In this document: positions 3,001 to 62,300 of the stretch, one piece after another
Position numbering within the stretch: the stretch's first letter is position 1
Layout: every line of letters begins with the position of its first letter
NCBI GenBank assembly: GCA_963969365.1
Contig: OZ017754.1
Span: forward strand, 248,001 to 312,000
Length of the DNA: 64,000 nt
Source of the DNA: Asterochloris sp. CNOR1
Taxonomy: Eukaryota > Chlorophyta > Trebouxiophyceae > Trebouxiales > Trebouxiaceae
Reading direction: 5' to 3'
The notes under the pieces: generated by a model
The model's input: only the letters and a program-made list of their open reading frames with translations
Databases searched by the model: none
What the model was told of the DNA's origin: nothing
Position numbers and translations under genes: made by a program

Positions 3001-6000
3001 CTGCGCATCAGCATTGGCAATGCCCTGTGTGGTGGGGCAGCTCAGAAGCAGCGCCTGACTGCTCAACTGCGTGCCTGGGGCCCTTACCTGGGGGCGCAGC
3101 TGTGGTGGGTCTGGCGCCTGGCCAAGGGAATCGTCGCCTGGCACCTGTGGGTCATGTGGGCACAGGCCGGTGTGGAGGCTGCGAGACATGTGAGGCACCC
3201 CAAGGAGTGGCGAACTACCCTTAGGTGAGGCAACCCTCTCGAGCAGGCGCGCCTTCCAGTATGGCTTGGGGAGTACTATGGAGTAGACGCCGCCCTAATT
3301 GCCCTCATCTGCAATCTTGCCTTCAAGCCCCTGCTCTCCCCACCTGCAGATCACCTTTGAAGCACCTTTGGACAACTTGCTATACCATGCCACGAAAGCT
3401 GCTCCGCTCGTACTCATCTGCATCTCATGCTGCGGTCCTTCAAGACTTGCCCTCCTCTGCTGCAGGTCACGCACTTTCCAGTATGGCCTGAAGTACTATG
3501 CAATGAATGCTGCCCTGCTCACCCTCATCATTGCACTGCAAGCCAATGTCAACCTGACGTCCTGGCACCCAGTATTTGTGGTAGGTTCTGCACACCTTTC
3601 AAGCATACCTGACAGCTCAACTCCTGATGGTAGCGGCATGATCATTTATTGCATGTCAGCCTTGCACAATGTGCCAAGCAGCCTGAAGCTGGCTGACTTG
3701 ACCCTGGTGCTGCCAGCAATCAGCACCTTCTGTTCTGCGGGCAGTGCTGTTCATCGCTTACCGTCATGTTGGTTGACAGAACGCCCTGCAGACTCACAGC
3801 CAGCTGCTGGTGCTGTCCACAAAAGCCTGAAGATCAGGGATTTTGAGTCCTGCTGTGCAGGCAGCCACCTTCAATGTGATCATCTCAGAGAAGGTTGGTC
3901 CCCTGTCGTGCTCCGCATTGCTCATGCTCTACTTCTGTAATGGCCTCATGCTCAAGCTCTGCGCAGCTGACTGTCTGCATTGCGACTATTCGCTTCCCTT
4001 ACTATCAAGCTGACAGTTGGTGTCCCGAATTGCCCCTCCAGCCTTGCACATCAGCTGTACAGCTGTAGTTGCAACAGCCTCTGACAGCGATACCATCGCT
4101 GAGTGCACAGGGACTCAGCTCAGATTCCGGGTTCCAGCCCTTGATGCAAATTACTGTGACCACATATAAGGATCTCCTCGGATACCTGAGGTCCCTCGTC
4201 AAAGTGGTGGTGGGGCCTTCTGGCCATGCTGAGCACAGATGTTCTCACATCTTTTTGCAGATCAATGTCACCATCAGCAAAGGTGTCCTCAGATTCCTGG
4301 GCTCTGTTGTTGGAGCTGTGGTAGGGTTCCTGGCCATGCTCAACACCGCCACGGCGACCAACCCCTACGTCCTGTCGATTGTGCTCTTCGTGTTTGCCTG
4401 GCTGTGCGGGCTCCTGAACTACACCAAATGGAAGTATGCAGCGTTCCTGGTGGGTGGCTGCTGTACAGCAATTCCCTTGCATGTCCCTTCCACTGTCCTG
4501 TGCCCTGGCTTTCTGTGCTTTCAGCCGGCCCTGCAGGTGCTGAACATCAGTGCTGTCCCGATCACACCTGGACAGCCTGTGTTTCGTGGGCTGTGCCACC
4601 ATCTAAACTCCCCTTGGTCCCTGCAGGCGCTGTACACCGATGCTGTCCTCATCTTGGCCCAGTACAGCCCAGAAGCAGGAGCCCACGGCAGAGCGCAGTA
4701 CCTGGGAGCACGCATGGCAGACATATCCATGGCCATCGCGGCCTGCATGGTGCTCAGCCTCCTGCAGCCCTGGTGGGGTTCTACTGCATGCGCACATTGT
4801 GGTTTGGCTTATGACAGGCATGGCAGCAGAATTTGTAGGGGCCAGCGATGCGCTTGACGTCCTGCAGCTTTGGCGAGCCCGCATGACCCCCTGCTTGGCG
4901 TGGCGCTTGCTGTGGTGCATGAACCCGTGGCCACCAATGTTGTGGGCACTTGCAACTCAGATGTGGTGCTGCTGCATGCACGTTGCTCCGGCCTCCCATG
5001 GCCCTGATTATATTTTAAGGCTGCCTGCTTGGCATGGCGCTTAGCATGGTGCAGCCTGTTTGTGGATGTGTGGCTTCCTTCATTGTGGTGAGCGTGCTGC
5101 AGCCCTGGCGAGGAGCTGCTTCATACACTTGCTGCTGCTGCAGCCGCGGGGAAGCCTGCTCACCGTTGTGGTGCCATATCAAGCAGCCCAGAACCAATGT
5201 TGTGCCTGCACCTGCACTGGGCTTGGACCGAGCCCCGGTGTAGCAGTGGGTGAAGCCTTGGATCACCTGCCTGGTGCTGGCAGGATCACACTGCATATAC
5301 TGCCGCTCTGACCCTTTGCGATCCCCCTTCAGCCCTGGAAGGCCGTTCCACTTGCACCACGCAGCAAGCTGGGCTTCATCAATGCTGCTGCTGAATGAAG
5401 TTGGCACATTGCGGGGATCCAGACCATGCAGCGCTGGCAGGCATTGATGCACCTGCAGCTCCTGCTGACAAGACAGAGCCCACAGCAATGCTGCACCACA
5501 GTGCTGCACCACAGTGCTGCACCACAGTGCTGCACCACAGTGCTGCACCACAGTGCTGCACCTCCTGCCAATCACACCTGCAGGCTCACCTCCACACAGT
5601 CCCCTGCAGGGCGCAGGGCCTGGCTCTGGCAGGCATTAATGCCGCTGCTGCCGCTGCCAGTCACACCTGCATGCTCATCTTTGCGACTCTTGCTACAGGT
5701 TTGCAGATCATGAAGCTCTGGCTGGCATTGGCGCTGTTGCTGCCGCTGCTGGCCGCCTGAACCAGCAGCTTTACCATCAATTCTACCATGAGCTGCAGCG
5801 GCCACTGGGGGAGAGCGGGTGGGGAGCTGCAGAGCAGGCTGCTGACAGCCAAGCTTTGCAGGAGACGGAGGGCCGGCTCATGCAGGTGCGCTGTCTTACC
5901 CTGGTGACAGTGCGCAATAAGGGCTGCATGTGATGCTGAGAAACTCAAGGGTGGGTAAGGGACAGCATGAGCTGCCAAGCTGTACACATGCAACAGCTGG

Positions 6001-8730
6001 GCTCATGCAGGGGCCTGTTATCGCAGTAGTTGAGCAAGCCAAGGAGGCTGCATGGTTTTGTGTCAGTGGAGGGCAGGGCTGCAAAGTCAGGCTGGGGACC
6101 ATCAAGCTGTGCAGGAGCTGCCTGCTAGGCTCCAGCAGGCGAGCAAGCCTGCCAGCACGCAGCCAGCGGCTGCATGCAGAAGTCACCACTACAACAAACA
6201 GGGCAGAGGGTGTTGACGTGACGGCACCAGCATGCGGTACGCGGCAGGCAAGCATGCCTGAGTACTGGCTGGCCTTGTCAGTGGCAGCAGACTGCAAGAC
6301 AGCCTCCCAAAGAGATGCCTCAAGCAAGAGCACCTGAGCAGAGCCATGGTGTTGACTGCAGTGTGTGGGCGCTCCCCTGGGAGCAGTGCAGGCCTCTGTG
6401 TCCACCGCCATCGTGCCCTGGCGTCGCGGGCTGCTGGTGATGCCTGCCCTGGTACAGGAGGGGCTGGCTGCCATGCAGGTCAGATCTGATAAGCTGCCCT
6501 TGTGATGCTTGGTACCTGTGATGCTGTCTGGTGATCTAACAGCTCTGGGAGCATGCAGCCACTGCGCGCACCTCGTCTGCCAAGGCATGCATCCTCGGCC
6601 CACGCAACTGGCAGGACGCTGCCTGTATGTGCATACGCTGCACGCCTGCCATCGCTGCTGTCAGTGAATAAAAGTTCTGCCCACAGCTTTGCAGGCAGAC
6701 AGTCCCAGTTCCCTGTTACGGAGATCACTTGAGAATCGAACAGTGATAAAGCAACTGGCAGCCATGAATTACCCTGCTGTATTGCTTGCCCCTGTGTTGT
6801 CTCTCAGTCTATCCTCTCTCTCTCTCCACACGTGCAGGTGATGGTGGAGCGGCTTGCGGCTGTCGAGGCTGTCCTGCTGCAGCCGCCGATCGTGTCGGGG
6901 CGCTTCACCTCTGCCCCCTTCCTGCACCTGGGGCAGCCTGTGCACCCCCAGAACTCTGCCTGCATGTCCACGGTGGCCCAGCTCATGAGGTGAGTGTGGT
7001 GATGTTGAGTGTGGCATGCCCATTTGAGGCTTTTAACAGGGGCGCGGCAGCAGGGCATGCATGGCTGCTGGACTGCGTCTTGCTGCTGAGCTGAATATTG
7101 ACAGGATTCCCATGTCCTAGCCCACCTGCATGTCCAAAGTGGCTCTGTTTTTGAGGTGAGGAACGTTGCAGAAGCAATTTCTGTAAAGACGTCAGCAAAT
7201 GGATCCACCCAGTGCTGAGACCCAGCTTGCTGGTACAGCTGTCCTCAAGCACAGATCGCTGACAAGCTCTCTGGAGGCCAACTGCCCGAGGGCCTGAAGT
7301 CGGTGTGTGTCAAGGGCTCATTGACTGCAATTTGGGAACCTCAAAGCATCTTGCAGTGCATGAGCAGTCGACTGCAGTGCTCGCTGAAGTGTGCCTGCTG
7401 TCCCTGCAGGGATGTTGCAGCTGTTCTGTCAGCCCCTGAGACAGGGCAGAGCGTTGAGAGTGCGCTGCGCAGCCTGGAGGCCAGCATTGAAGCAAATGTG
7501 GAGGCCAGGTGAGCGCTCGTTGGTGATAGTGCTGGGACTTGCTGACCATGCAACCTGAATGATGACTGCACATTTGCACATTTCCCTTCCAATGAAAGCC
7601 AAGGGGGAATCGGTCCCTGAAGCCTGTTGGCTTGGAGCCCAGTCTCTTCACGGAGAACCGCAGGTGAAGGCTGAGGGAGAGATGTAGTGGGTTCTGCGCC
7701 CTGCTAGCTGTACCTGTGGCCAGTCTGGCAGATCCACATGGGCCTCATTTGGGCATGCCATGTTCGTGTTCTTGAAGGATAAGAACTGCTGCCTGCAAGG
7801 TTCTCTATCCCTGCAATGCTAGGCGACCACATGTTCCAAATGGCCCACATCACTGCCCATGCTGACAGCAGGCCTCGTTTTGCAGAAAGGGTGTTTTGCA
7901 CATTTGTGGTATACTTGTTCATCGTGCAACTTGAAGTATGCGAGCATGGCCTTATCTGGGCTTGTCTACCGGCTTTTGGCGTCCTTCCTCTAAAGACGCC
8001 CCTGCACTGTTGGGTGTCCACACGACAGTGGCCAGATCAATGCCACTCAAGCCATATTGCCCTTTCCTTGAGAATTTTTCAAGCGTGTTGAAGGTGGTCA
8101 GCCGGTTCAAGAACCTTGCTGCTAAGCAATTCTGGGACTGCAGGGTGGCCTTCAGATCACAGTACTACTCAGTGAGGACGATGGACCATGCTGCTGCCAG
8201 GACAGAGGACAACTCATCATGGCTCAAGGAGCGCACGCTGGACGATGCAGGTGCTCAGCTCTCCCAGTGCCATGCCGCACTGCTGGTACTGCTGGGCAGC
8301 AGTCATTCAGCACCTTGCTGCAGTGTGAGAGGTCTGTGCTGGAGCTGTACAGCCCTGAGCTGCAGTGGTGGCAGCACCTCTGCCTGCCTGTCAGGCATGC
8401 TTGCATCGTCAACGTCCACCTCATTCATACTTACTGCACTGTGTGCTGGCAGCCATTCCACACCTCAAGTTCTGCTGTATAGCTTGTTGGGCAGAGTCAG
8501 AAGTGCTGCTGTCATATGGTTGTGCCTGGCCATTGTCTACCGCCAGCTACCTGAGTGATGCGGTCACCTGACGTGAGTCCCTCGTCGCCTGCATTGCAGT
8601 GAGGTTCCTGGCTTTTGTGTTTGCCAGCTCCCGGTCCTGTGACACAGCCCTCCTTCTGGCTCGGATGGTGGCAGACGACCAGCACCTGAAGAAACACTCC
8701 GTCAAGCGCTGGGGAATGCTCATCTGTTAG
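1..8730 (+). CDS. FUSC/ArAE-like multi-spanning membrane protein (5' partial)
   Basis: Exons that join in phase: <1-138, 626-803, 1448-1598, 2051-2249, 2494-2824, 2985-3224, 3466-3580, 3861-3893, 4261-4449, 4627-4772, 5699-5885, 6362-6478, 6838-6989, 7410-7508. Less certain exons follow near 8090-8250 and 8295-8389, and a last exon from about 8600 ends at the stop, 8728-8730 (C-terminus KRWGMLIC). The exon at 2494-2824 is hydrophilic. Exons 2985-4449 encode hydrophobic helices, including AALLTLIIALQANV, GSVVGAVVGFLAML and SIVLFVFAWLCGLLN. The pattern 'HPVFV ... GVLRFLGSVVGAVVGF ... NPYVL ... KYAAF' resembles the FUSC/aromatic-acid-exporter fold, which also includes plant ALMT channels. By analogy it would move organic anions or small solutes across a membrane; substrate and membrane are unknown. 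The start lies left of the window. Its introns hold several decayed exon copies. Confidence 0.72.
3245..3312 (+). repeat. Decayed copy of the gene A exon at 3466
   Basis: It aligns with the exon at 3466-3580 from an AG acceptor through 'TTCCAGTATGGC' and on through 'TACTAT ... GCCGCCCT ... CTCATC'. Two extra bases put the copy out of frame, so it cannot replace the functional exon. Confidence 0.8.
4141..4236 (+). repeat. Decayed copy of the gene A exon at 4261
   Basis: Read in frame it gives ITVT..KDLL.YLRSLVKVVVG, against INVT..KGVLRFLGSVVGAVVG in the functional exon. The shared 'CTGGCCATGCTNANCAC' block closes the match. It lies directly upstream of the exon it copies. Confidence 0.8.
4537..4566 (+). 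repeat. Decayed copy of the 5' end of the gene A exon at 4627
   Basis: After a CTGCAG acceptor, 'GTGCTGAACATCAGTGCTGT' matches 'GCGCTGTACACCGATGCTGT' at the functional exon start at 4627, and the likeness runs on through 'CC.ATC'. Confidence 0.65.
5088..5690 (+). repeat. Intron with an exon-tail copy, two exon-head copies and a 13-bp minisatellite
   Basis: The 926-bp intron 4773-5698 holds four pieces. A copy of the preceding exon's tail with its junction lies at 5088-5115 (LQPW context). A copy of the head of the next exon lies at 5416-5475 (DHAALAGIDAPAA against DHEALAGIGAVAA). A second, weaker head copy lies at 5622-5680 (LALAGINAAAAAA). About six units of the 13-mer CAGTGCTGCACCA lie between, at 5486-5562. 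Confidence 0.75.
7115..7165 (+). repeat. Decayed copy of the 3' end and donor of the gene A exon 6838-6989
   Basis: 'CCTGCATGTCCAAAGTGGC' followed by 'GAGGTGAGG' matches 'CCTGCATGTCCACGGTGGC' followed by 'GAGGTGAGT' at the functional exon end. It lies downstream of that exon. Confidence 0.65.
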
Positions 8731-9170
8731 CATGCAATGTCAGAACTGGGAAGTGTACGACAGTCTGACTTTGTGAACTGAAACACTTGCAGCAATGCCA
8801 GCCGTACTGCCAACTGTGAACTGGGAAGGCCATTTGTGGGATTTTTAATAAACAATGCAACAAGCTGCATGAAAGCAATTGTGTCTCCTGCTCCCTCACA
8901 TCAAAGCATGAAAACAAGTCATCAAGGCGCTTTTGTGGGGCCAAATAGATGAGGTCGACTTGAGGAAGGAGACCCAGGGGTATTCTTGAGCGCTTCAGAC
9001 GCCTCAAGCGTAATGCACAATGCGGCATGCCTGGCAGTGCAGCACATGAGCAGGTGAACTGCATGGGCATATGCACCAAAGGACGCTGTGCAACACAGTC
9101 ACCCAGGCATCAGCATAGGATGTCGCTGTGCAGGTCAGGTTGGGCAGCGGAGCATGTGGCTCACTCCAGC
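8731..9170. other. Intergenic stretch downstream of gene A
   Basis: I see no convincing gene. An AATAAA at about 8849 is the only candidate 3'-end signal for gene A; no TGTAA was found. A - strand frame at about 8870-9010 gives a hydrophilic peptide but has no visible continuation. Confidence 0.4.
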
Positions 9171-9179
9171 AGCAGAGCA

Positions 9180-10450
9180 TTTGCAAGTACTGCTAGAACG
9201 GCTGCACGAAGCAGACCCTGGGCGTCCGCTAGCACGCCGAGATAGGCTTCTGTTCAGCTCTCTGAGGACGTTGTTCTGGGATGCTAGAGGGTGCAGGCTG
9301 CTGAGCGATGAGGTGGCTCCACCTCGCAGTGTCATTTTGGCTATACCTGGGGCCTAGTCATGTGGTGCGGCACCTCTGCTCCAAACAGGAAGGGCGCTCC
9401 TGCATCCGACTCCACAACTTCCCACCTGCAGCGCGCCTGTCATCTGTCCAGCCTATGGCCTGCCAGGTGCTTGAGGGGAGGCAGACCAATCACTGTGCAG
9501 GCGCAACGCTGCAATCCAGGGCATCTGCAGAGCATGCCAAACAGACAGAGCCACGGCATGGCTGTAGGCGGCAATGAAGGGCGTCTGCATACCAAGCAGG
9601 TAGAGCAGCCGCACTGCACTAGGCCCGCTTACTGGTTCCAGATGGCTGGTCTGACAGCCGAGCTGGAAGTTGCCAGTGCTTCTGTTCACAAACACAAATT
9701 GATCCTGCATGCCAGGGTCCCATCCAAGTCCTGTTGCAGGCATCAAGGTGGGCCACTCTGCATGTTTGCCACACCAGCCAAGCACAGCGAACAGCTGCAT
9801 TGTCACCCCTTGCAAGCTGCCGCGAGCACAGAGGGGGTGCGCTGCAGTGATCAGCAGTGCAACAGCCAGCATCAAGGCCCACTTGTTCCCACGACTGGGA
9901 CATCAGTCATTGAGGGTGGCTTTGCAGCACTGCAGAATGCACCTGCTGTAGGACTCTTTCATGCTCCGCCTGCAAGACGGGACCGCAGTGGTGTGCGAAG
10001 GTGTGGTTGTACAGCTCTGCAGACATGTCTGTCAGGCCTCGGGCCTCTCTAGCACAGGCGCTGCCTCTGCCAGCGGCAGGATGGGCATGATGAGCTCGCC
10101 AGCCCTGCAGGGCCAAACGTTCTCACATTGAGCAGCAGTGGTGCATGTCTTGCCAGCCTGGTGGGCTGCACAGTCATCTCAGAAACGCCTCCCGCCAAGC
10201 CACCTGGCATGACTTGCAGGTTTGTCAAGGTAGCTCAACGCAGGTACTCTAGCCTTAATAACATTGCAGACAGCTCGGGGCTATCACACTTACCAGGGGC
10301 GGATCTTGTGCACGAGCTGCAAGGCAGGCTGGCAGCAGCGCAAGGCCAAGCAGCACCCCAGTGGCGGCCTGCATGCCACAGGCCGGTGCCGTCAATGCTG
10401 CAGCTATGTGCCCCAGGGGATCATGCCCAGACTACCAGGCCAAAGTACAG
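9180..10450 (+). CDS. Possible + strand gene, uncharacterised, with a Cys-pair exon
   Basis: Three stretches look exonic. About 9180-9290 gives VLLERLHEADPGRPLARRDR then LFSSLRTLFWDARG. About 9958-10110 gives LQDGTAVVCEGVVVQLCRHV followed by a Ser/Ala/Met-rich tail. About 10269-10420, after a TTGCAG acceptor, gives GYHTYQGRILCTSCKAGW with a second Cys pair (CRQC) some 23 residues on, possibly a zinc-binding fold. I recognise no family. Phases between the stretches were not resolved and neither start nor stop is defined, so this may be a real gene with missed exons or a decayed one. Confidence 0.3.
9627..9702 (-). pseudogene. Fragment of the GH5 mannanase gene (gene D exons 2-3)
   Basis: On the - strand this reads FVFVNRSTGNFQLGCQTS. 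Gene D has FAFVNDQ | GNFQVGCST across two exons at 28379-28418 and 28237-28285. The match runs on to 'TCTGGAACCAGTAAGC', so the donor is kept. The 93-bp intron of gene D is absent here. No other GH5 exons were found nearby. Confidence 0.65.
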
Positions 10451-10689
10451 CATGACTGGCTGCGTCTTACAACAAGGACGCTATAATGGATGCAGCTTGA
10501 TGTCACGCGGATCATGTCACGTGTCACCTGCCCAGCGCTTCAGCGGAGGGCCTCACTGCCCAACAGCATCGGTCCTGACGGCGCCTCCAGCGCTCTCCAA
10601 GCCTGGCATGCACATGTTGCACTTCTGCCAATGAGCTCAGCTGGACAGAAAGGTGGTTTGCAGCCGCCCATGCAGTGCCTGAACAAATG

Positions 10690-10790
10690 ATTGTCTTCAG
10701 AAGCTGCAACTTCTGTTGAGCAAGATACTGATGCGGCTCTATGTTACTGATTGTGCAAGGCTCCAAGCCAATGTCGGGCATGTAAGGCTG
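10690..10790. repeat. Dispersed repeat, copy 1
   Basis: 'GAAGC..CA.CTTCTGTTGAG', then 'TGCGGCT', then 'GCAAGGCTCCAA', shared with 17385-17480. On the - strand both copies give a peptide of the form LEPC...QQKL.LL.T. It may be an old transposable element piece or a shared gene tail. Confidence 0.55.
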
Positions 10791-11014
10791 CATGGCTGCG
10801 AATGGCTCAAGCAGCTGACAGCAGGAAAAGTGTAAGCTTTGGCACTTTGGGCCAGGTTTGGCTCCATAGCTGTGCCCAAAAGGAAGATGTTGCCAGTCCC
10901 TTGACAGCAGCAATAGCAAGTCCCTGCATTGAAGTAATGTTCAGCATCTAGCAACTGCATCAAATGACTGAGTGGTGGGTGACCTCTATATGGTGCTGTC
11001 AAGATGACTTGGGT

Positions 11015-11019
11015 TTACA
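11015..11019 (-). terminator. Candidate TGTAA poly(A) signal of gene C
   Basis: TTACA on the + strand is TGTAA on the - strand, about 225 bases past the proposed stop of gene C. Confidence 0.35.
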
Positions 11020-11244
11020 TACTGGGCTGGGATAGATGCTTCTGTATGGGTCTGCTTCAAATCTTCATACAGTCAGGGCTGCAGATGTCCAGACTGCATG
11101 TGGAGGCTAGATGATCCTTGTTGAGTGTTTGCTCTTCCTCAATGTCACTCTCCATTTTCAGCCTCAGCTCGGCAGGGAAACCAAATGCCTTGCACACACA
11201 GTGCAAGGCACGACACTGACGTTGCGAAAGCGGGCCCTCAACAA

Positions 11245-13300
11245 TTTCTAATCTGTCACCGCTCCGCTTGTACTGTGCTGGACATTAGATGCTGTGAATA
11301 AGGTCCGACATTGTGTTGTACACACCCACCACATATCTCTCGCAAGGTCATCATCTGTGACTGGACACAGCAGCGTGCTGCTGTCAAAGACAGATGGCTG
11401 CGCCAAGCACTGCTGCAACCGGGGCGTGTCGCGAACAACCTTTCTCCAGAGACCAAGATGGGACAGGCCAGTGTAGCCTGTGCGTGTGGATCTCACCTCC
11501 TCCTCAATGTAGGCCAAAACCCCCAACATGGACACGCGTCCCTTTCCCAACAAGAGCTCAAGGGAGCGTTGCTCCAGGATGGCCTCTGCCTGCATTGCGC
11601 GGACTGCGGCTGCTCCAGCCTCCCCTGCTCTCTCGGCTGCTCTTGTTGCTGCAGCAGCAGCAGCCTCCCATCCAGCAGCCGCCTATTTGTTTGACTCAAT
11701 GATGCGCTGGGTGTCTGCATGTCTCAATTGCCAGTACACAGCCCGAAGCCTTTCACTGCTCAGCTCGGCTCTGGAGAGCTCCTCCTCAGAATCATCTGCT
11801 GCCGCAGTGTTGAAGACCCTGTGTCAGCAGAGGTTCTGATCAGCTGGTGTCAAAGTGGCTGTGCCGGGCATGCAATGCAAAAATGCCACTTGGCACCTAA
11901 CCGAGCTCGACGGCCGCTTCGCTGCCGTCCAGGGCCTCTTTGCTGTTACACGAAGCAGTGCACGCCCCGCAAAGTGGTGGCTTTGCTTTCTGCCGATCGT
12001 GTTCAGGGTTTGACCCAAGGCTTGATGGCTCTGAGCGGAGCCAGTCAGGCCAGGCGAGACCTCATCCATATCCATACCGAGAGTCAAACAACAAAGCACA
12101 GCCAAGAAATAACAGAACCATGCGCTTCCTATGTTGGCCTGCATTTAAGATGTAGACCACCGGAATCTTTGTCAGCACCAAGACATCAGCAGGAGGGGCA
12201 GGGATGACAGCAGGTGGTGCTGCAGGCTGGACATGAGCAGGAGGGGCATCAGTGTCAGCAGGTGGTCGTACAACAGCAGAGTCAGCTGCAGGCATTGACT
12301 TTGCAACAACATCTGTGTTTGCAGCATTGACGCTGTCAGCAACTGGAGCAGTATTTGCGCCGTCTGCTATGGGCTGCTCTCAGATACGTCTGACTTCATT
12401 CAGTCTTTATGTCGGAAGCCTGTTCAATGCCTCTTAAAAGCAGTGTATACAACCCAGCTGTCTGCTATGCAAGCTTGTCCTGCATGGCCTTGTTGCCTTG
12501 GTGCAGCGGTCGTATGGCTCATTCCACTCACAATTACCTTCCTTGAGCTCCTTTGCATACAACTGAGTTTCAGGACCCTTTCGTTTGCAGTAAAAATCTA
12601 CTCATGCGTTGCTTTTCCACAATGTGGTGTGATTCACCATCTTCAGATATGGCGATGCACAGCTACCTAGCAAACAGCAGAGGTCGCTCTGACCCATCAT
12701 GTTATGGCAAGTGTGCATGCTTTGCCTAATGCTGCCAGCCTGTGGTTTGCAACCTCTCAGATTCAACCAAGAAAAGTATCCCTCAACTGGTGGAGCTGTG
12801 GCCTGTCTCGCTTCCTGTGCCTGTGCCTGTGCTTGTGCTGGCCTGCACAGAGTTGGTCTCTGTGTCACTGCAACAGCGTCGAATCTCCCTCAAGGGCCCG
12901 GCGCAGTTCTCAACTCTTTATTCACGTCCCCCCCACCCACGGCGTTCCCCTGGGCCACTGAGGCAGACACCTGTGGGAGTGATTTCAGCTGCTGCTTCAT
13001 CGCAGCAATTGCCTGATGATGATCTGCTTTTGCCTTTAGGCATCTTCCTGCAGAAGTCACAGACGGTTTGCTACTGTCACAAAGTTGAGGGAGCACATGC
13101 TGAGCGTGCAGTAGCTCAGCTCTTGTGCATTAGGCTCATGTGCTGCCTGCAACGCTTGGGGTCGAGGTACCCAAGCACTAGTGTCAGCCTTGTGGTCCCA
13201 CCCTGCTGTTGTCCAGGGCCTCCCATATACCTGGTCAATTGCACCCTGTGGAGCAGCATGCAAGCTTTGACTTGAAGTGGGTGTACTTCTGTACTACAGT
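11245..13300 (-). CDS. Uncharacterised Ala/Pro-rich, coiled-coil protein gene
   Basis: Stretches that look coding on the - strand: about 13096-12890 (KAKADHHQAIAAMKQQLKSL), 12385-12130 (low complexity, ADTDAPPAHVQPAAPPAV), about 12058-11890, 11822-11690 (EEELSRAELSSERLRAVYWQ, likely helical), and 11680-11245 (Ala-rich helix, then IEEEVRSTRTGYTGLSHLGL, ending GAVTD and a stop). I recognise no domain. The reading frame is interrupted once between the last two stretches by an in-frame stop that no obvious splice removes. This is either a missed intron, an assembly error or a decaying gene. The start is not resolved; it is probably divergent from gene B at 13403. Confidence 0.4.
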
Positions 13301-13402
13301 AGGCGGTACTGGCAATAAAAGCCACTTATCTGTTGTGCCCGCACAACTCTCAATTGCCAGACTGTAGCTCTCAACTAGCCCAGCAGGCGCTGCTGAGTCA
13401 GC

Positions 13403-17224: not shown

Positions 17225-17384
17225 CCCTGACATGCTCAGCTAACAATTGCAAACTACCCCAGGACTCTTGAATGTCAGTGCAGATGTGTCAGCAAATGCA
17301 GCAGTGCTAGGGTTGCTGCTGGAAGTCTTCGTCTTCTTCAAGCGATGTCAGCTACTTCAGATTGCGCAGAGGTGCCTGAATGTT

Positions 17385-28579: not shown

Positions 28580-29223
28580 GGCTGATCTCAAGGCTGAGGA
28601 CTGGCTGACGCGTCCTGCCTAGAGGCACCCTGCAGGCTGCTGGACTGACACTTGGCCGGTACACAGTGTGGCACAGAGCTGCTGGAATCACAAGGGGACT
28701 AGATCTCTCACTGTACTCAGAATGGCAGCCTCTTGGACGGGCTCCGTGGTTCCAGAGCTAGCACAGCTGTCCTGCCTGGCAGCAAGCATGAATAGCCTGC
28801 AACATGTCATGGTGCTTCTAGCCCATTGTACCATAAGACGCCCTGAACCTTTCAGAGATGCACTTCGAGGAAAGTGCAGGCGCACTGCACACCTCTGTAG
28901 CTGCATGCACACTCACCAAATGCTCCTTGTGGGTCTCGTCATGCTGCCTGGAGCCCATGGCACCTCCCGCCGCAGCTTTAGCTTTTGCGTCTCAGCTGAA
29001 CTGTCTCTCATGTCAAGCATGCTCCCTGCTCCTTCCAGGGGCTGCTGAGGATGCCCCTGCGCGCTCTTTGTCCTCCCCAGAAACAAGGTTAGAGTTACAC
29101 AAGGGTGTTGGGTCCAAACTCATCTATGCGTCCTTTCAAAACTGTGGGCTTCTCCAGCCTTGGGATCATTCATGCTCTCTCAAACTCGTAAGTCTTCACA
29201 CCAATGGCCAGCACAATGACTTT
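28580..29223. other. Intergenic: promoter side of D, 3' side of E
   Basis: About 640 bases with no convincing coding exon. It must contain the gene D promoter near its left end and the gene E 3' UTR at its right end. Confidence 0.5.
29095..29099 (-). terminator. Candidate TGTAA poly(A) signal of gene E
   Basis: TTACA on the + strand, 125 bases beyond the gene E stop. Confidence 0.45.
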
Positions 29224-32880: not shown

Positions 32881-32884
32881 CACC

Positions 32885-52000: not shown

Positions 52001-53008
52001 CATGTGTATTCCTTGGACTGTTGCCTGGCAGTTCCGGGGGCAGGGGATGGCAACGGTCCCCGAATGCAACTGCATGTTGTGGCCAGCTCGTGTGTCAAAG
52101 GGCAAGTTCTGGCACTGAGCCTTGCTCTGCCCGTGAAGAGCTCTGCCAAGAGCCCAGCTACAGAGGTCTCCAAGACTGACTGCCAGCTGTGTCATTGCCA
52201 TCTGAATGATGGCCATCCATAGCATGTGTCAAAAGCTTCCATGGCTCGGCTTTCACCTGTTCTGCTGCAGAAAGCTGAGTGATGATGTCAGCTGGTCTGA
52301 CGGGGTGCACTCCCACTGCAGGCCCCACTGTACCCAACAAAGGCCAGGCTCTTCCCTGGTAGCACCTTTGTCATAGGCTACGACACAGCTATCCGCCTAG
52401 TGGATGGGAAGTACTATGGGGGCGATGACGCAGCTCTGCTGCAGATAGCTGCAATGAAGCAGTCGGTAACAGCTTCTGCTTGACCTACAATGTCTGCCTG
52501 GTGCACAATGCGCTTGGTACATGCTCTCCGAGAGCTGTCATTGAGCAGTCAGCAGATAGGTGGCCATGTGCTTGGTGCGCAGCACCGGCCCCATGCCAGT
52601 GCATTCTGCCTCGCTTTGCAGTAGCAATTGCAGGAGGCAGGGGGCCCTGCATCTTGCCTGGGACTTTACGCTTATGACAGCCTGGCCGCTCAGCATTGTG
52701 ACTTGCGTGATGTCATGCCAGGCGCCACCTTTGCAGGGGTGCTCTATTCTGGTGGCTGGGAGGGTGGCTGACGATGGGACGTTCATGACGCTGGCAGACA
52801 TCGAGCTGCCCAAGCTCATGCAAGAGCAGGTGAAGGACAATCCTCTGTGTATGCAGCCACTTTGAGAGCGCAGCTCATGTGCCTCTCTGATCGTTGCTGT
52901 CTGTGACGACAGGCTCTGTTCGAGTCCATTCCTGAGGAGACCTTCAGGGCAGACATCTCCTCGACGCTCTTGCGGTCACGAGAAAACACTGTCGATGAAG
53001 GCTCCTGA
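48859..53008 (+). CDS. CinA-like domain fused to a cytidylyltransferase/NMNAT-like domain
   Basis: Exons: 48859 or 49063 to 49152, 49225-49479, ~49703-49779, 50149-50263, then ~50920-51184, ~51740-51881, ~52321-52466, ~52738-52830, and a last exon 52917-53008. The first half has CinA-family marks: FYVTGGAMQ, WMLTTPGASRTVLESRVPY, and IGVGCTCALATDREKKGVHK. The second half has GSFNPLHEGHRGML, the HxGH nucleotidyl-transfer motif, then FVIGYDTAIRLVDGKYYGGD and a final FRADISSTLLRSREN of the 'ISST.lR' type. Proteins with this pairing exist in plants, and an NAD- or nucleotide-related role is likely, though the reaction is not established. From 48859 the frame adds 68 residues, rich in Arg, Ser and Ala and with no acidic residue until the last few, like a plastid transit peptide. 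Borders between 50263 and 50920 are unresolved. Confidence 0.82.
49819..49985. repeat. Tandem intron duplication, about 97-bp spacing
   Basis: 'GCTGGGG.TGCCCTACTGAGC' and 'GAGTTCCATG.TGT.CCTA' occur twice in a gene K intron. Confidence 0.85.
50804..50955 (+). repeat. Tandem duplication of about 76 bp at the head of a gene K exon
   Basis: 'CACACCACAG', 'CCTCAGTGAGGCCCCCTGG' and 'GTCAT.GCAGCT.AGGTCAGCA' occur twice. The second copy runs into the exon carrying the HxGH motif. Confidence 0.85.
51243..51325 (+). repeat. Decayed copy of the HxGH exon segment
   Basis: 'GGCAGCATTGACCCCCTGCA' then 'AAGGG', against 'GGCAGCTTCAACCCCCTGCA' then 'CGAGGGCCAC' at 51103. Both end in 'GCGC(A/G)CTCCAAA'. The copy has lost the second His of the motif. 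Confidence 0.8.
51842..52010 (+). repeat. Threefold repeat of a gene K exon end, about 62-bp unit
   Basis: 'GGCAGTTCAAGGAGCAGGG' of the exon end is copied at 51903 (GGCACTTTGAGGAGCAGGG) and 51966 (GGCAGTTGAGGAGCAGGG), each followed by donor-like GT. Confidence 0.75.
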
Positions 53009-53188
53009 CTCTTGAGGCCTGCAACTGCCAGCCTGTTGCAGCTGTACCTGTGCCTCTCTCCTGTACACTTGCCAGTACTTCCCTGGCTGTCCCTCAAAGT
53101 GCTCTGTCAATTCGTGCACACCATTGCCACACAACATCTGCTTGGCCCCACATCAAAACACTGATCTGAGCAAAGTGATCTGCAGCTG

Positions 53189-53193
53189 TGTAA
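53189..53193 (+). terminator. Candidate TGTAA poly(A) signal of gene K
   Basis: TGTAA 180 bases past the stop. The rest of 53009-53389 shows no exon and must include the gene L promoter. Confidence 0.45.
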
Positions 53194-53389
53194 GGTTATC
53201 ATTGGATGCGCATTTGAAGCGGCCCAAGTGTCAGATTGAAGCTGACCTATGCTTCGTGCTCCATGCAAATAAACTCCCTCAGGGAGGGGCGGTGATCCGT
53301 CCATTGGTCGCCTGACATCCCTCACAGGACCTGCTATCAGCACTGGGTATTGCTTTCGTGTCTCCCCTCCAGATCTCTGTCTGGACACA

Positions 53390-56300
53390 ATGAAGGGCAT
53401 GTTCAGCCAATTTAAGACTTTTGGAGGGCGTGGGCAGCAGACCAGCCCTCCAACCAGAACTCCCTCTCAAGGGGATTCAGGCATACAGGACATGCTGGCC
53501 AAAGCCGAAGAGCTTCTTAAGCAGCTGCACGACACACACACACAGGACTTCCCACACTTGAATGAGGCCACCCGGCTAGGTAAGCACAGGAACTGATCAA
53601 GTATGAGCTGCAGGCGCGATGATGCTTGTGGCCACACTGGCGTTCCTTCAATGCAGTCCAACTCATAGAAGGCTCGGTCAGCAAGATGCCAGACACCGAC
53701 ATGAAGGGCGTGTGGCGCGAGTGAGATCATGCACCACCACTTTCCTCAGCCTGCAATTGAGACGCAAAGATGCTGCCTGGGAGATGCCCCGGAGCCTTAG
53801 GCATTGCTTGAGAGCATTGCCCATTCCAGATGCCAGCATGCAGGGAGCAAAGAGGCTGCCTGCATCCCAGGGGATGCCCCTATACTCTCCATTTCTGCCT
53901 TGGAGGCCTCACAACCCGTTGGCATACACTCAGCAGCCTACAGCACTGTTATCTGGTCAGGTCACACCCTGTCAAGCTGAGCTGAGCTTGACAGTTGTCT
54001 GTCCTGTCAAGCTCAAGCAGTCTGCTGCTGGTGTTGCAGGCAGGTCAACGAGCTGCAGAAGGAGTTGCAGAGCGCGACAGAGAAGATGCTGTGCTGCGAC
54101 CCTGCAGAGCCTCCTCAGATGGACAGCCAGCCAGCGGCGCAGATGTCTGGCTACGCACCTCCAGGCACGTGTTTGTGCTGGTACTGACATGGGTCCTGAT
54201 GGATGTGTCCTATTCCGCAAGGGCTGCACCAAAGGGACCTTGCAGAGCCGGCACACAGCGGTAGCTAGGTGATCGCCCAGTCTGACTCCTGCATCTCCAG
54301 CGCTGCCCTGGTGCTGCTCTTGAGTCTTGTCAGTGTTGCCTTGAACAGGGCTTGGGCTGCATCAACGTCAAGCTGTAAAAGCCCTGCCTTGCCCTCACAC
54401 AGATGGCAAGATGTCCAGTCTGGCATTGCCCTGAAGCACACTGCAATCTGCAGGTGGTAACATGTTCAGCGGGCTGGACGTGGGCACCCAGCCAGCACTG
54501 TCTGCTGCAAGCTGGCGCAGCCCCTCAGCGCCTGCCAGACAGGTAGCAAATGCCCCAGCAGTCAGCATGGCATCTGGACCAGGGGCCATGGGAGGCGGTG
54601 GCGGTGGTGACTTGTTCAGTGGGCTCCACCTGGGAGACCTTGCAGCCGCCCCAGCAGCAACCGGTGCCCGGCCGCTGCCGCTGGACCTGGCAGGGGGTGG
54701 AGGCGGCTTCGCTGCTACACAGGGAAGCCTGCCTGTGCAGGCAGGCCAGCTGGAGGAGCGGGATGGAGTGCTGGCAGGAGACAATTCAAAGGAGGGACTC
54801 AGGTGTGCTACGGGGATGTGAAGTTGCCAGGATGTGGTTTCGTTCTCTGTTCATTTTCCCAAGGCAGGAAGAAGGAGGCATAGGCACAACAGGGAGAAGG
54901 GCTGCAGGGTGTGAAACGGCGGCCTGACATTGGCTGGTGGCGGTTGTGAGCTCGAAGCGGGTGCTCAGGTGCGCCATTGACAGGGCTGCAACTCACCTGT
55001 CAGCAATGATGAGCTTTGCATGGTCTGCCTTGCACATGTCTGCTGGCAAATTTGCTCTGTACTGCTGTGCAGTGCCTCATCCAGCACTCCCTTGCCAGCA
55101 GACCTCTTCACAGGCTTGGACAGCGTGACTGTGGACTCTCCTGCGCAACCGCTTCAGCTGCCGCAAGCCACGGTTCTCATGACGGTGCCTGTGCAGCACC
55201 CAGCAGGGCAGGCCGTTCAGGTGGGCATGCAGATGATATCCCTTCACCTTTTGCCGGCGTGCTGTCTGGCAGGCAGGCAGTCAGCCAGTTGAGGTGCTGC
55301 CCAGCAGCTGCTGTCAGCTGCGTATACGATGAGCACCCTGCAGACTTCACCTTCCTGCTGCGCAGCAAACTTGAATACAAAAGTCCCTGCGGCGACACTT
55401 GAAGTACATGTGCAATGTTGCAGAGCTCATGCTGACTCAGGTGCTGTCTGCGCAGGTGCCTGAGGCCCCTGCGGTATTGCTTGGCACAGATGGGCGGCGG
55501 CGGAAGAAGATCACACGGCGAGTGGGCTATGCCCGGGATGCAGACGATGATGGCCTGCCAGGTAAGCAGTAAATGACACTCTTGGAGGCTTTGCTGTGGG
55601 CAATGCTGGTCTGGAGCCTGGTGGTACTCTCAGGCGGGTGTGTGTTCCTGATGCTGCAAGGCCTTTCTGTCAGACACAAGTGCTGCCCGACTGGGGTTAA
55701 GAATCTTTGACCAGGTGCATGCGCTGGGCCAGGTGAGCTGACCTTGCTGCTTTATGGCAGATGGACGTGCTCCAGGGCCACCTTTATTCGTTGCCAAAAC
55801 ACACACAATCAATACTCCACAGCAGGTACATCATTTTCTAGTGATGTCCCTGATGCCTGCCTGGTGCTCCCAGCATGCTTCGGCGTCACGATCTGTTTAC
55901 ACCACAGGCACAGTCACGCTGGCTTGCGCACGGCAGGCCCTTGGCAGGCTCGCCCGCAGCTCACTTGCCAAAAGCACAGTCATGCCGCCTGGCCCACAGC
56001 AGGTCCCGCACAGGCTGCCGCACAGCTCAGCACAGTCATGTTGCCTCGCCACTGCGGGTGACTCGCTGGCTGCCCCATAGCCCACACACCACAAGCATAG
56101 TGATGCGTTTTGCCCACTGCAGGTCCCCCGCAGGCTGCCCCTGCGCGGCCCGCACCTGCAGTGGCAGCTGAGGCCCCCAGCGCGCGGCAGCAGGCAGCAC
56201 GGGATGACTTGGGGGCAGCGGGGCTCCTGGCTTCCCTCAACGGGCCAGTGGCATCCGCGCCAGCAGCGAAGCCCCCAGCAGGCTCCCAGCTGCCAGCTGC

Positions 56301-59300
56301 GGGGTCCCAGCAGGCAGCTGCAGCCCGGTCTGGGCAGAGCAGCAGCGCTTACCTGGGCTCTCTGCCCGGCACCAGCCAAAACCATGATCCGTCCAGCCTC
56401 ATGGGCATTGCTGCCCAAGGGACCCTGCTGGGCAGGGCCCCCACAGCTGCGATGGGCAGCGCCCGGCCGGCGCAGCCGGCCTCCCAAGGCACGCCTAGCA
56501 GGCAGCTGCGTGTTGGTGACATGGCTGTGCCGCAGCAGGCCCCAGCGCCCCGCCCCTCAGCAGCCCCGCGGTCTGGGAACTCTTCCCCTGTTGCTAGGCC
56601 GGCAGCCCCCCTGGCAGCCATGCTCGAAGCAGCTGAAGCGCTGGCAGGGACTGCTGGGACAGGCACCAGGCTGTCCCAGCCTACTCTGCCATACGCAGCA
56701 GGGGGCAAGGGCGGGCAGGCAGGTGTTGCCCAGGCCCCACACGTTGCAGGCTCCCAGAAGGGACAGGGAGGGGCCCAGGCCTCCCATGTCTCAGGGCAGG
56801 GCGGGCAGCGAGACAGGCAGGCCTCAGCTGGGGTTGCTTCTGCGGAACCTCAGAGCGTGGCGAAGAGTCTGCAGGTGCACACATATGCTCTGCGCTGCTG
56901 CCTGCTGGTGTAATGGTGGATGGTGGAAGCTGGGGCTGCTAGTTACTCAGAAAAAGTACGCACAGCTTTCGAAGCCAAACTGCGGTCTGTATGTGCACTT
57001 GTGCAGGCCGCACAACACAGGAGCATTGAGGACCGCCTGCAGCTGGTGCAAGACCATGCAGCCTCTGAGCTTGCGCGCCTGAGCAGCAGCCTGGCTGCTG
57101 CCGTGGAGGCTGAGCAAGCAGCCAGGCAGCAGCGACGCAAGCTCCTCACAAATGTGGCTGAGAAGCTGGGTACGCCCGCAGTGCATGCGTGTGCGCACGC
57201 TCAGCACATTTTGAGGGCCACGACTGTTCCATGAACAGCCTCTGTGGCAGCCAAGCTGCTGTCTCAACCCTGCTTTTTTCACTGCTCCAGCTTTTGTATG
57301 ACTTGTTTGCAATGTTGAGCTCCATCATCCCGTCCTCCTGCAGAAGAGGTGCTGCTGGATGCTGAGGGTACCATTGCTTTATGGGCACGATAGTCCTGCT
57401 CTGCTGCAGGGGAGGTGCGGCGGCTGGAGGCCGAGGAGGCTGAGGCTGTTGCCCAGGAGGACTTTGAGGCGGCCGCCAACCTCAGCAGCGAGCTGGATGC
57501 CCTCAGGTGAAGATTGCACTGTGACGGGCCTTTGTCTCAGAAGGGTCAGGTGCGGGGTGGTGCCAGAGGTCATGCAAAAGGTAAGGATTTGTGCTCCTCA
57601 TCAGCATTCTGTTTGCCCTTCGGCAAGCTGTTGCTATTCTGTAAGGTAGCTTCGCGCCCATTGGTGTTGCAAGAGGCAAGGGGGTTCACTTCTCATCAGG
57701 GAGCTGGATTCTGGCAGGTGAACTGCCCAGGTGGGCAGTCCTGTGCCAAACAACATGCAGCAGGCAAGTTGGCACACTCCCAGTAAATGCTCGATATGCC
57801 CAGACGCCACTCTTGCAACGAGGCTGGCCAGGAGGAGGTACATGCCTCAAGCAGGGAGCTAATCCTTCTTCAGTGAGCACCGACAGAGTAGTGCTGGTGC
57901 TTTTTGATGCCTCAGGCATGCAGTAGGCCTCTTTACATTGCTGAGCAGGGAGCTTCTGGGCTGGTGTGACCGGAGAAGCATGCCTTCAGTTAATTTGTGC
58001 CACCTTGTTGCTTTGCTTTGTCAATCAGGCTGAGTCACTCTATGCAAGAGGCCCTGTGCTCTGGTGCAATGCATTCTTCTGAGCTGCTGTCAGCAAGCCC
58101 AAGACTTAGGTGCTCTTGCTGTTTCGCACCCTGCAGGGCACACTTGACACTTCTGCACTGCTCCCTCAGACATGCTGAGGCTCACACTCCTCAAGAAGGC
58201 GCTCAAGCAATTCTCACCCTGCAGGGCACACATCCAAGCTCTGGACCGCTCTGTCAGCAAGGCTGAGGCAGACTGGGAGGCCTCAGTGCAGCGGCGAGTG
58301 TCAGGTGCTGCCAAGCAGGCGGCGGTGTGGCAGGATGCGGCGGCCGCTGTGGCCTCCCTGCAGCAGGGGCTGCAGCAGCAGGCGGCAGCCGTGGCGGAGC
58401 GCGCTGCAAAGGTCAGGCAGCTTCGCCAGCACATGCGCTGTCAGGCTGTTGCACAAGCTGGAGAGGGCCGGACAGCCCACCACCACCCTGAGGACAGGCA
58501 ATGGTCCCCAGTCCTTGTTCTGAGCGTCTGCAGGCTGCAGCATGAGCTGCTGAGGAGGTTGCTACCACCCAGCAGCTGGAGAGACACATGCAGACAGGCA
58601 ATGCCCCCCAGTCTTTGTTTCAAACGTCTGCAGGCTGCAGCTCAGGCTGCTGAGGAGGATGCTGCCACCCAGGAGCATGCTGAGGAGCTCAAGGCACGCA
58701 TTGCAGCCCGGCAGGACTGGATCGACAAGGAGCAGGTATAGGGTAGAGCCTTGATGAGGGTGTTGGGATCTGAGCCAACCGGAAACATTTATGCGCCTGC
58801 TGCCCTGAGGAGCCTGGCAAAGCTGGTTCTGCAAGGTGCAAGGTGGGCCTGCTGGTGTGGGGCAGGGATCTGACAGTGCCTGGGACTGTGTTGGGCTTGA
58901 CCAGCCGGGAAAATGGTGATGAGGAGCAGGCATGGTCCACTGCGTTGTGAAGCAGACTTGCCACACACTCTGGTCCCGGTCACAAGTCCGGCTTGACTGG
59001 CTGCCCTGGACTGCCTGCCTCCTGGAGGGTGTCTGAGACAAGGGAGTCTGGCTTGGGCTCGCCCCTCAGGCAACCGACAGCAGCATGCGTGCATTTAGTG
59101 CTTACTGGATGGCAAAGGGTGTGCTGGCAGCAGAGGTAACAAGACAGGCTGCATCATACACTTTAGCTACCTGAAACGGCAGGCATGGCCACTTTGCCGC
59201 TGCTTTGGGAGTATTTTCACACATGTACCAGTGAAACAAAACCTCCCTGTTGCAGGCCAGCGTAGACAAGAAGGTGGCCGAGGCCACAAAGCCTGCTGCA

Positions 59301-62300
59301 GAGGAGCGCAGCGTGCGGGCTGAGACGCATGCTGCTCTGGCAGAGGAGGTTGCTAAGCTCAGGTAGGCGAGCTCACAGCCTGCAGCACGCATTGTCTGCA
59401 ATATGTCATTGCACCAGCAGACAGTTGGATGCTGAGGTGCATTCTGATTGGCAGAGCAGGTTGCTGAGCTCAGCTAGGCCAAGTGACTGCCAGCAGCATG
59501 CATCTGTTGCAGAAACATCTCTGCTATGGCAGACCGGTAGATGCTCAGAGGTGCGCTGCTCTGCTGCCTGTCACTGCAGCATGCATCATGTGCAGTGTGT
59601 CCATGCGAAGGCAGACAGATAGATACTGAGGCCCCGCTGCCCTGAAAGAAGATGTTGCTGAGCTCAGATGAACAGAGTGATTGCCAGCACCATGCATACA
59701 ATGCAGAAACAGCACTGCTAGGGCCTACAGGTAGATGCTGCGACACACGCTGCTCTGGCAGAGGAGGTAGCACAGCTCAGGTAGGCAGGCTGTGTGCCTG
59801 CAGCGTGGAAAGTTAACAAATGTCCTTTCAAGGACATACGTGGTGCTGCAAAGGTGCATGCTGCCCTGGCAGAGGATGTCATTGAGCTTGGGAGGCAGGT
59901 AATCTGTTTGAGCTTGTGATGTGGTGACTCCACACTGATCATGCATGGGCAACTTATATGGGCCGGGCAGAAAGGGTGATGATTGGGCAGGTGGGCTCTG
60001 CAGCTGCCAGAATCTTGTGACAGAGGGTGGCAGAGCCCCTCATGCTGCCAGATGCCAGAAGGACATGGGTCTGCTGTGACTTCAGCGCCTCAGCCCCAGA
60101 CGGCTGTGCAGCGGGCTGACATTGAGGCTTGCTTGGATCTTGATGCAGGGCTCAGCTTGCTGAGAAGGAGGCTGCGCTGAATGCTGCAGCGCTGCAGCTG
60201 GCCGAGAGTGAGGAGCAGATGCAGGCCTTGGCGTCCAAGTACGACAAGACGCTGGCCCGGCTGGCAGAGGACCGCAAGTGAGCAAGCTCCTAAGACTGTG
60301 CCTGGAATCACACATGTTGCAGCCACGCCAAGCATGCCACCTGCTTCCATGCCTGCCTGGCACAGGAACAGCAGGTGAGCGTCGATGGAGCTTTCGTGCG
60401 TATGGCAGTTATGGTCAGGCTTGCTTTGGCCGAGGACCTGGCATGAGCATTTTCCGGGCCTTGCTGGTGGCCTTTCCTGTTGGCAGTTGTGGCCACGCCA
60501 AGCATGCTACGCTTCATGCTTGTGTTGGCAGAGGGCTAAAAGTGCGCAGTGTCTGTGCCTCATCCTGGCCATGCACATCTTGGCTATGCCTCTTCCAGGC
60601 TGACCTAAGATGATGCCACCCAGATGGCAGCAGACTGCAAGCGAGCACTGATTTGGTGTTTTAGAAACGAGTCCTGTGTGGCATCTCAATGCACCTGCAG
60701 CCATGCCATCTGTCTGGTGGTGGTCTGCCTGAGACTGCCATGCATTCGCCACATGCAATAGTGTGACACGCTGCTTGTCTATTATCTCGAGACACAGCAG
60801 CATCTCAGGAGCACTCTTGAGATGCTGAAACACCTGGGCATGTGTCTGCACAGCTGATTTCTGTGGTGCTTCAAGCAATACTGGTGTCCTGTTCAGGTCT
60901 GTGGCAGCTGAAGAGGCCGAGCAGCAGACCACCTTGCGGTCCCTTGAGCAAATCAGGCGCCAGGCAGCAGAGGCAGAGGCTGCGGCTGCAACAGAGCAGC
61001 AGCAGCTGCAGGAGCAGGTGGGCAGTCTTTTCACCCTCTGCATCTGGTCAACTGCACAGAACTATACCGAGAATGCACCGCTGCTCAGTCAAGAGGACCA
61101 GCCACCTGCTTGCTTTCCTGGCCGCGGACTGTCAGAATGCCTCCCTGCTGTCAGCCAGTGCAGTGTGATCCATGCTGACACCTTCGTGCTCACGCCGCTT
61201 TCAAATGGGTCCCTGCACAGCACAGTGGCTGCCTGCTGCAGGCAGAGGCGGCGGCTGCGCTGGCAGGTGTACTGCTGGGCAGAGCGGCAGCCATCACTGG
61301 TTCCATGGAGGTGCAGAACCGTGTACGCCAGACGCAGGCAAGACTACGCCAGGAGGAGCAGCAGACGCAGGCGCGCCTCAAGGTAATATGCCGCGGGAGC
61401 GGGCAGGCTGCAAGGTTACGGGGAATTGGCAGAGAGGCAGCAGGAGGGCGCATCAATTTGTCTTTCACGGTTCACAGGGTGGGGATTGATTTCACTCCTG
61501 CACTCAGAGGCCTAAAGCTTTTTTGTAGGCAGTTCTGAGACGGTTTGGCAGACTGTCAAGAATCAGGCGGAGCTGTGAACGAAGCAGCAGCAGACTAACA
61601 GCTGTCTGAATGTGCGTGGATGGCAAATGGATCAATCAGTTCGGGCTTTTGTGGCTGGTCCATGCTGAGCGCCCTTGATGAGGGGTAGGACGGCACGACA
61701 TTTGCAGCAGCCCTTATACACGGATCTCCATGTTTGCACAGAAGCTGACTGTGTGAGGGCCTGCAATCAGCAGACTGTGACCTGCCTGAAGCTGGGTCTG
61801 AACATACGGGCAGCCACAGTGGCAGGCCTGCAGCTGCCCTGTGACATTGCATGGCAGCTGCAACCGCCACAGGTCTACAGTGTCAGTTGCTATGTCTCCG
61901 CAGACAATATGGTAGATGTCAGCCAGTAGGACTGTGCAAGCCCCTCTGCAGGAGAGGGACAACCGCCACTGCACAGGATGGGGATGCAGGCAATTGAGCT
62001 GCAATGTCCAGAATTCAGCGACCCTTTGTATGACACCTGCTCCAGCAGGACATCGCATCACAGCTCAACATGCAGGCTCCAGACAGACTGGATCTGGCTG
62101 CCAGATTCAGTTCCTCCCTGACTGTGCAGGACCTGCTTCATGAGGTGGACGCAGCCCGTGTGACAGCCTGGGATGCCGGCACCAGGCGGGCCGCCCTGGC
62201 TCATGAGGCTGGCCTGGCCGAGGAGCAAGCTGCCGTGGCCAAGCGCCGCATCCCAGAGTTGGAGGCAGAGAAGAAGGCGGCTGCAGCTGCAAGGGTGAGC

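Follow-up and report, generated by a model that had tools for sequence, protein, structure and literature searches.

The stretch analysed here, hereafter the window, comprises 64,000 nucleotides (positions 248001–312000 of contig 9, OZ017754.1) of the 56.4-Mb, 21-contig genome of the green alga Asterochloris sp. CNOR1, and carries eight predicted genes, six of which have introns with diverged copies of adjoining exon ends. Together with a comparison set of 20 further 10-kb stretches over 15 contigs, the DNA examined amounts to 264 kb. GC content is 58% and introns are dense; the lichen alga Asterochloris is described in outline as having a 56-Mb genome with 56–62% GC in 98% of it and 9 introns per gene (PMC6652019).

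Exons and introns were assigned by an ab initio hidden-Markov gene finder trained on the same 264 kb, and its models were built without RNA evidence. The learned splice signals are strong (donor CAG/GTGAG and acceptor CTGCAG/G, the slash marking the exon border), and 625 exons (median 110 bp) and 588 introns (median 231 bp) were called. Six of the seven predicted proteins or pieces scanned contain Pfam domains, namely FUSC_2, short-chain dehydrogenase, EGF/PAN, RINGv, Rer1 (E = 4e-71) and TPR; the seventh gave no domain in that scan. Some models fuse neighbours or include tiny doubtful exons. Several neighbours are probably merged in each of the predicted genes at window positions 17982–32040 (33 exons) and 49063–63901 (35 exons), and 9850–13400, intergenic according to the gene finder except for a three-exon model of 38 amino acids, may hide a missed gene.

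Excess and extent of local direct repeats

The 264 kb were subjected to a gapped self-scan (score of at least 100, direct repeats 20–600 bp apart), with separations of 3 kb and 5 kb and a Markov shuffle as controls. The scan returned 161 local direct repeats, compared with 2, 1 and 0 in the three controls. The window contributed 54 of them (controls 1, 0 and 0) and the 20 other loci 107 (controls 1, 1 and 0); as a method check, the identical scan of 50 kb of E. coli K-12 gave 2. Ungapped matches were tens to hundreds of times more frequent at separations of 10–300 bp than at 3–9 kb, both for the window and for the other loci, the control counts being small (3 and 1), and their separation peaks at 75–125 bp in both sets. 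Direct pairs were found in 20 of the 21 sampled stretches, the window included, at 0.1–1.0 per kb; the remaining stretch (L003) had zero in the gapped scan. Of the 564 introns that are at least 60 bp long, 126 are touched by copies, and 8.5% of intron bases are covered. These data confirm that the local direct repeats are real and extend beyond the window.

Spaced inverted repeats within 600 bp numbered 1, compared with 9 in a roughly threefold larger inverted control at 4 kb, and inverted copies are therefore not enriched. Short tandem duplication requires direct orientation and proximity, which is the pattern found (161 direct pairs versus 1 spaced inverted pair).

The original prediction held that introns of several genes in the window carry diverged copies of the exons beside them, and it turned on exons matching their own introns more often than other introns. 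Exon sequence was compared with the adjacent intron, with length-matched introns from elsewhere and in inverted orientation (local score of at least 110). In the window, 10 of 184 junctions gave a match, compared with 5 of 1029 matched introns (about 11-fold), and in the 20 other loci 37 of 643 did, compared with 9 of 3858 (about 25-fold); the inverted orientation gave 0 of 184 and 3 of 643. The copies are spread over several genes, as had been claimed, with the 29 exon–intron pairs of the window falling in six of the eight predicted genes and touching 20 exons; the gene letters used earlier do not map onto the present models.

Exon ends copied across splice sites

The 161 pairs comprise 90 exon–intron pairs, 44 intron–intron pairs, 23 pairs with exon in both copies and 4 intergenic pairs. 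Random placement would give 58.4 exon–intron and 56.4 intron–intron pairs. The exon–intron excess is milder in an ungapped scan with base-wise classes, where 163 clusters yielded 75.8 exon–intron (54.6 expected) and 69.4 intron–intron (77.6 expected).

What has been copied is mostly an exon end together with its splice site, across the junction, and seldom a whole exon. Among pairs with exon sequence in exactly one copy, the acceptor is spanned by 41 of the 48 copies situated 5' of the exon and the donor by 34 of the 49 situated 3' of it, while both splice sites are spanned in just 4 of 97 exon–intron pairs. The crossings are strongly polarized. The splice site on the exon end that faces the copy is crossed in 70 pairs, compared with 22.8 expected under random placement (26 versus 7.4 in the window alone and 44 versus 15.5 in the 20 loci alone), and the far-side end is crossed in 1 pair, compared with 9.9 expected. 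Similarity continues at least 15 bases into the intron past the junction in 46 pairs and therefore reflects more than the splice consensus. The prediction that copies usually span a splice junction is thus borne out, whereas its description of them as duplicated exons is not.

Once in the intron, the copies decay nearly neutrally. Exon and copy differ at 0.222, 0.211 and 0.280 of first, second and third codon positions (90 pairs), a ratio of third to first or second positions of 1.15–1.44. Differences of 22, 21 and 28% are near those expected if the copy decays freely and the exon changes mostly at third positions. A frameshift or in-frame stop interrupts the short aligned part in 37 of the 87 copies with at least 15 exon bases (all loci). 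The earlier statement that most copies are out of frame is thus supported in part.

In the window, the 54 pairs divide into 29 exon–intron, 17 intron–intron, 6 with exon in both copies and 2 intergenic. The exon–intron pairs are spaced by 100–300 bp in 18 cases, more closely in 8 and more widely in 3. The copies are listed below by window coordinates and strand, with source, identity and offset in bp.

3235–3309, +: intron copy of acceptor and exon start; source 3454–3529 (exon 3466–3580, FUSC-like gene), 77%, offset 219
4140–4236, +: intron copy of acceptor and exon start, CAG changed to CAA in the copy; source 4251–4346 (exon 4261–4449), 68%, offset 111
4529–4563, +: intron copy of acceptor and exon start; source 4619–4653, 80%, offset 90
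5077–5124, +: intron copy of exon end and donor, GT changed to GC in the copy; source 4742–4789, 75%, offset 335
5420–5467, +: intron copy of exon start; source 5704–5751, 75%, offset 284; part 5431–5465 also resembles 5623–5657, 80%, offset 192
6078–6144, +: intron copy of exon end and donor; source 5826–5891, 71%, offset 252
7125–7160, +: intron copy of exon end with intact donor GAG/GTGAG; source 6959–6994, 81%, offset 166
22072–22123, -: intron copy of exon start and acceptor; source 21982–22034, 75%, offset 90
22188–22246, -: second intron copy of the acceptor region also copied at 22072–22123; source 22001–22058, 71%, offset 187
27163–27235, -: intron copy of exon start and acceptor; source 27039–27111, 68%, offset 124
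35499–35590, +: intron copy of acceptor and exon start; source 35576–35668 (exon 35626–35735, RINGv gene), 74%, offset 77
35870–35909, +: intron copy of exon end and donor; source 35711–35751, 88%, offset 159
36920–36998, +: intron copy of acceptor and exon start; source 37260–37341, 70%, offset 340
37109–37150, +: intron copy of acceptor and exon start; source 37268–37309, 74%, offset 159
37172–37249, +: abutting tandem copy of acceptor and exon start, 8-bp overlap at the joint; source 37242–37317, 95%, offset 70
37436–37769, +: 85-bp array starting in exon 37294–37456, four tandem copies of exon end with intact donor CTACAG/GTGACAC, 92%
39906–39958, -: intron copy of exon start and acceptor; source 39829–39881 (Rer1 gene), 77%, offset 77
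40704–40770, -: intron copy of exon start and acceptor; source 40533–40596 (Rer1 gene), 72%, offset 171
43805–43839, -: intron copy of exon end and donor; source 44005–44039 (TPR gene), 80%, offset 200
44273–44314, -: intron copy of exon part; source 44130–44171, 74%, offset 143
45571–45613, -: intron copy of exon start and acceptor; source 45404–45445, 79%, offset 167
47686–47839, -: two intron copies (47686–47735 and 47784–47839) of the acceptor region of exon 47478–47579, 80% and 75%, offsets 116 and 219
51258–51332, +: intron copy of exon end; source 51103–51184, 77%, offset 155
51904–52052, +: intron copy of exon end, donor and intron; source 51842–51990, 69%, offset 62
58123–58181, +: intron copy of acceptor and exon start; source 58211–58269, 76%, offset 88
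58493–58576, +: intron copy of acceptor and exon start; source 58593–58676, 83%, offset 100
59856–59888, +: intron copy of exon part; source 59327–59359, 82%, offset 529

The 85-bp array, which had been noticed earlier, measures 3.8 copies with 92% matches at 37443–37769; its four tandem donors lie at 37457, 37542, 37627 and 37712. Other repeated sequence was also noticed. An intron stretch of about 120 bp (window 36980–37106) is 86% identical to C12:899078–899197 (L027), one of the few dispersed matches, and about 200 bp of a predicted intron (window 20800–21000) are 70% identical to C4:1567827–1568025 (L002), a possible repeat or paralogue. Long imperfect palindromes of 200–370 bp occur at window 21272–21474 and several times in L009 (including 3409–3778 and 4588–4884); they are possibly decayed mobile elements or hairpins.

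Origin of the copies

Locality, direct-only orientation, junction-crossing polarity and near-neutral decay are demonstrated for the copies. The account towards which we lean, with modest confidence, is short tandem duplication in place across splice junctions, followed by selective retention and decay. Short direct duplications, with offsets mostly of 60–280 bp, would arise in place. Where a duplication reached across a splice junction, splicing that retained the outer copy of the site would let the gene survive, and the inner exon end with its splice site would then fall into the intron and decay. Duplications within an exon would mostly be purged; those within an intron would survive, but with both copies decaying they would sooner become invisible. 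What remained visible would be half-exon relics beside exons, each facing its source exon end. The likely source would be error-prone joining of staggered-end breaks with fill-in, or replication slippage on one strand. The repair mechanism and the selective filter, and perhaps a greater activity in the past than now, are what we infer.

Both the direct orientation and the rule that the facing junction is crossed are predicted by tandem duplication across a splice site with the outer site kept. The simulations comprised 13 runs of a tandem model that is blind to place and keeps exons partly frozen, four later runs of it (two sets of two), and 4 runs of spaced insertion. The tandem simulations reproduce the polarity, with 65 and 52 facing and 0 far-side crossings, whereas the spaced-insertion simulation misses it (43 facing, 10 far-side). 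The two copies adjoin or overlap in 43 of 157 pairs, including several that are among the best preserved, and a 5–8 bp overlap at the joint is present in 7 of 23 two-copy abutting cases of at least 75% identity, few joints being readable. In spaced pairs the spacer resembles the outer flanks above chance (mean percentile 0.631 versus 0.5, 101 pairs), and some of these pairs resemble aged tandem units that have lost the rest of their intron part. The resemblance in intron–intron pairs (0.774) fits the tandem simulations.

Several observations weigh against tandem duplication with even decay. The 13 tandem-plus-decay runs, assessed by run in some and by class in others, keep 42–89% of pairs abutting, above the 43 of 157 observed, and give exon–intron to intron–intron ratios of 0.48–1.17, compared with 90:44 (about 2:1); heavier indels and deletions in the model make the gap to the data smaller, but it is still present. 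For 97 pairs whose length falls well short of their offset, a block test of the flanking sequence found no residual identity. The spacer resemblance of exon–intron pairs (0.623) is nearer to the spaced simulation (0.566) than to the tandem ones (0.791 and 0.889). Only 4 intergenic pairs were found where 16.5 were expected, which is odd for a place-blind process, though just 22 kb of DNA are predicted to be intergenic.

Young pairs are also too few. Exon–intron identity peaks at 70–85%, and at least 90% identity is reached by 4 of 90 exon–intron and 6 of 44 intron–intron pairs, whereas the nearest constant-rate tandem run gives 10 of 63 and 16 of 79, respectively, and two other runs give more. 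The shortfall is clear for exon–intron and slight for intron–intron pairs, and constant-rate loss of copies alone would not make young pairs rarer than old ones. Some fresh cases exist (98%, 96% and 95% identity). The scarcity suggests that the process has slowed or that copies begin already diverged; the substitution spectrum, checked for repeat-induced point mutation (RIP)-like hypermutation as its cause, shows no strong overall C-to-T or G-to-A excess, while transitions at CpG (43 of 207) are somewhat elevated. Of the predicted continuing process of tandem duplication and decay, then, the local, direct-only, nearly neutral and widespread character stands, while simple tandem duplication with even decay leaves the abutting share and the exon–intron excess unexplained and the word continuing finds no support.

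Copies could instead have been set at a distance from the start, the nascent strand slipping nearby on the same template, copying 30–60 bases and returning. We consider such spaced direct copying possible but improbable. It suits the spacing of more than 20 bp in 114 of 157 pairs, and its simulations, with 21% abutting, match the observed lengths, offsets and abutting share better than the tandem ones do; exon–intron spacers resemble their flanks about as weakly as under it. It also predicts more away-facing exon-end copies (10 simulated, 1 seen) and more copies that cross no junction (38 of 94 simulated, 21 of 97 seen), and with exon–intron to intron–intron ratios of 0.58–0.82 in its four runs it too leaves the exon–intron excess unexplained.

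That excess could arise if duplication were aimed at splice junctions through transcription or splicing, by R-loops, stalled forks or nicks at exon ends, which we think unlikely. Were it so, exon borders would break and duplicate more than intron interiors, and exon ends would keep shedding copies, a steady supply of spare splice sites.

It seems quite doubtful that the copies are retained as working alternative exons or competing splice sites, a role that the original prediction had allowed for. In-frame stops are depleted (9 versus 18.7 expected, a ratio of 0.48), compared with 23 versus 27.1 (0.85) and 21 versus 22.2 (0.95) in the other two frames (44 versus 49.3 together), which hints, without proving it, that some copies formerly had a coding role or have been annotated wrongly. 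The dinucleotide is kept in 42 of 59 copied acceptors (AG) and 26 of 56 copied donors (GT), and the 85-bp array has four identical donors. Against such a working role stand the near-even differences across codon positions, the 37 of 87 copies broken within the aligned part and the near lack of copies with both splice sites.

Introns might themselves be born when an exon segment that contains AGGT is duplicated in tandem (the Rogers model), so that intron ends would resemble the opposite exon. Intron birth by tandem duplication is documented, as far as the outlines of two reports go (PMC3443670, PMC4974935), and exon ends and introns here do share junction sequence. A donor is aligned with an acceptor in only 1 of 161 pairs, however, and an exact-register test found 5 of 412 introns with at least 36 of 90 matches, compared with about 1.2 expected from the control rate. 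Intron birth is accordingly rejected as the general cause, for which it is very improbable; a few introns may have arisen in this way.

Chance, shared composition (CTGCAG-rich sequence and splice consensus) or a dispersed repeat family is hardly credible and is refuted for the whole set, given how far the 3-kb, 5-kb, shuffle and other-intron controls, low yet nonzero, fall below the observed counts, the similarity past junctions, and the finding that three pair-rich stretches of 2.3–2.9 kb match themselves alone genome-wide save for one 120-bp stretch (very common words skipped), although single weak pairs may be chance and an exon-only search at 80% identity or more barely exceeds its other-locus control. 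The genome-wide dispersal of introner-like or transposon insertions was likewise not seen for these three stretches; a fourth, window 20000–21000, gave a single match of 200 bp at 70%.

Significance and comparison with known systems

If general, the copies preserve a legible history of small duplications in a compact, intron-rich genome; since the exon changes slowly and serves as a reference, each relic can be dated and oriented. They also show how introns could lengthen and acquire latent splice sites with no transposon involved. The excess of exon–intron pairs over simulation (90:44 versus ratios of 0.48–1.17) is relevant to the question of whether mutation is concentrated at exon borders. 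Some copies may truly have been spaced from the start, or duplication may really be more frequent at these borders.

The density had been thought to exceed that of other eukaryotes, which these data do not establish. With an identity threshold of 80%, a copy within the same gene exists for 0.57% of exonic bases, compared with 0.41% for other loci and 0.12% for the opposite strand; published values at 80%, as outlined for studies whose annotation and search settings differ, are about 2% in human, 0.08% in fly and 0.06% in worm (PMC9013439). At 70% identity the share is 4.1%, against 1.2% for other loci and 1.2% for the opposite strand, and the excess here lies in older copies at 70–80% identity. 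Exon-end relics of this kind are not described among the literature matches listed, which comprise titles and the starts of abstracts and leave subscription literature mostly outside.

Tandem exon duplication, which yields mutually exclusive exons, likewise places exon sequence in the adjacent intron of the same gene, and the search idea is that of PMC9013439 as outlined there. Mutually exclusive exons have both splice sites copied; here whole exons make up 4 of 97 pairs, and half exons over one junction, in near-neutral decay, prevail. The duplicated segment is similar to the partial exon with flanking intron outlined in a competing RNA structure model (PMC6071210), but no functional exon cluster was seen here. 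Intron gain by tandem genomic duplication shares in-gene duplication at AG/GT-like sites, judging from its summary (PMC3443670); it makes the donor homologous to the acceptor at an offset equal to intron length, a register absent here save in 1 pair, and the copies here enter existing introns.

Small tandem duplications from the joining of staggered breaks are, by the available outlines, well documented (PMC8355091, PMC5730883). Unlike end-joining duplications, the copies described here are mostly old, non-abutting fossils beside exons. The duplications attributed in mammalian cells to CST/Pol alpha-primase and classical non-homologous end joining (cNHEJ), and those in the plant work that both papers cite, are likewise short, direct and close, and the likeness extends to Tandem Repeats Finder (TRF) arrays that mostly hold about two copies and to joints of which some overlap by a few bases.

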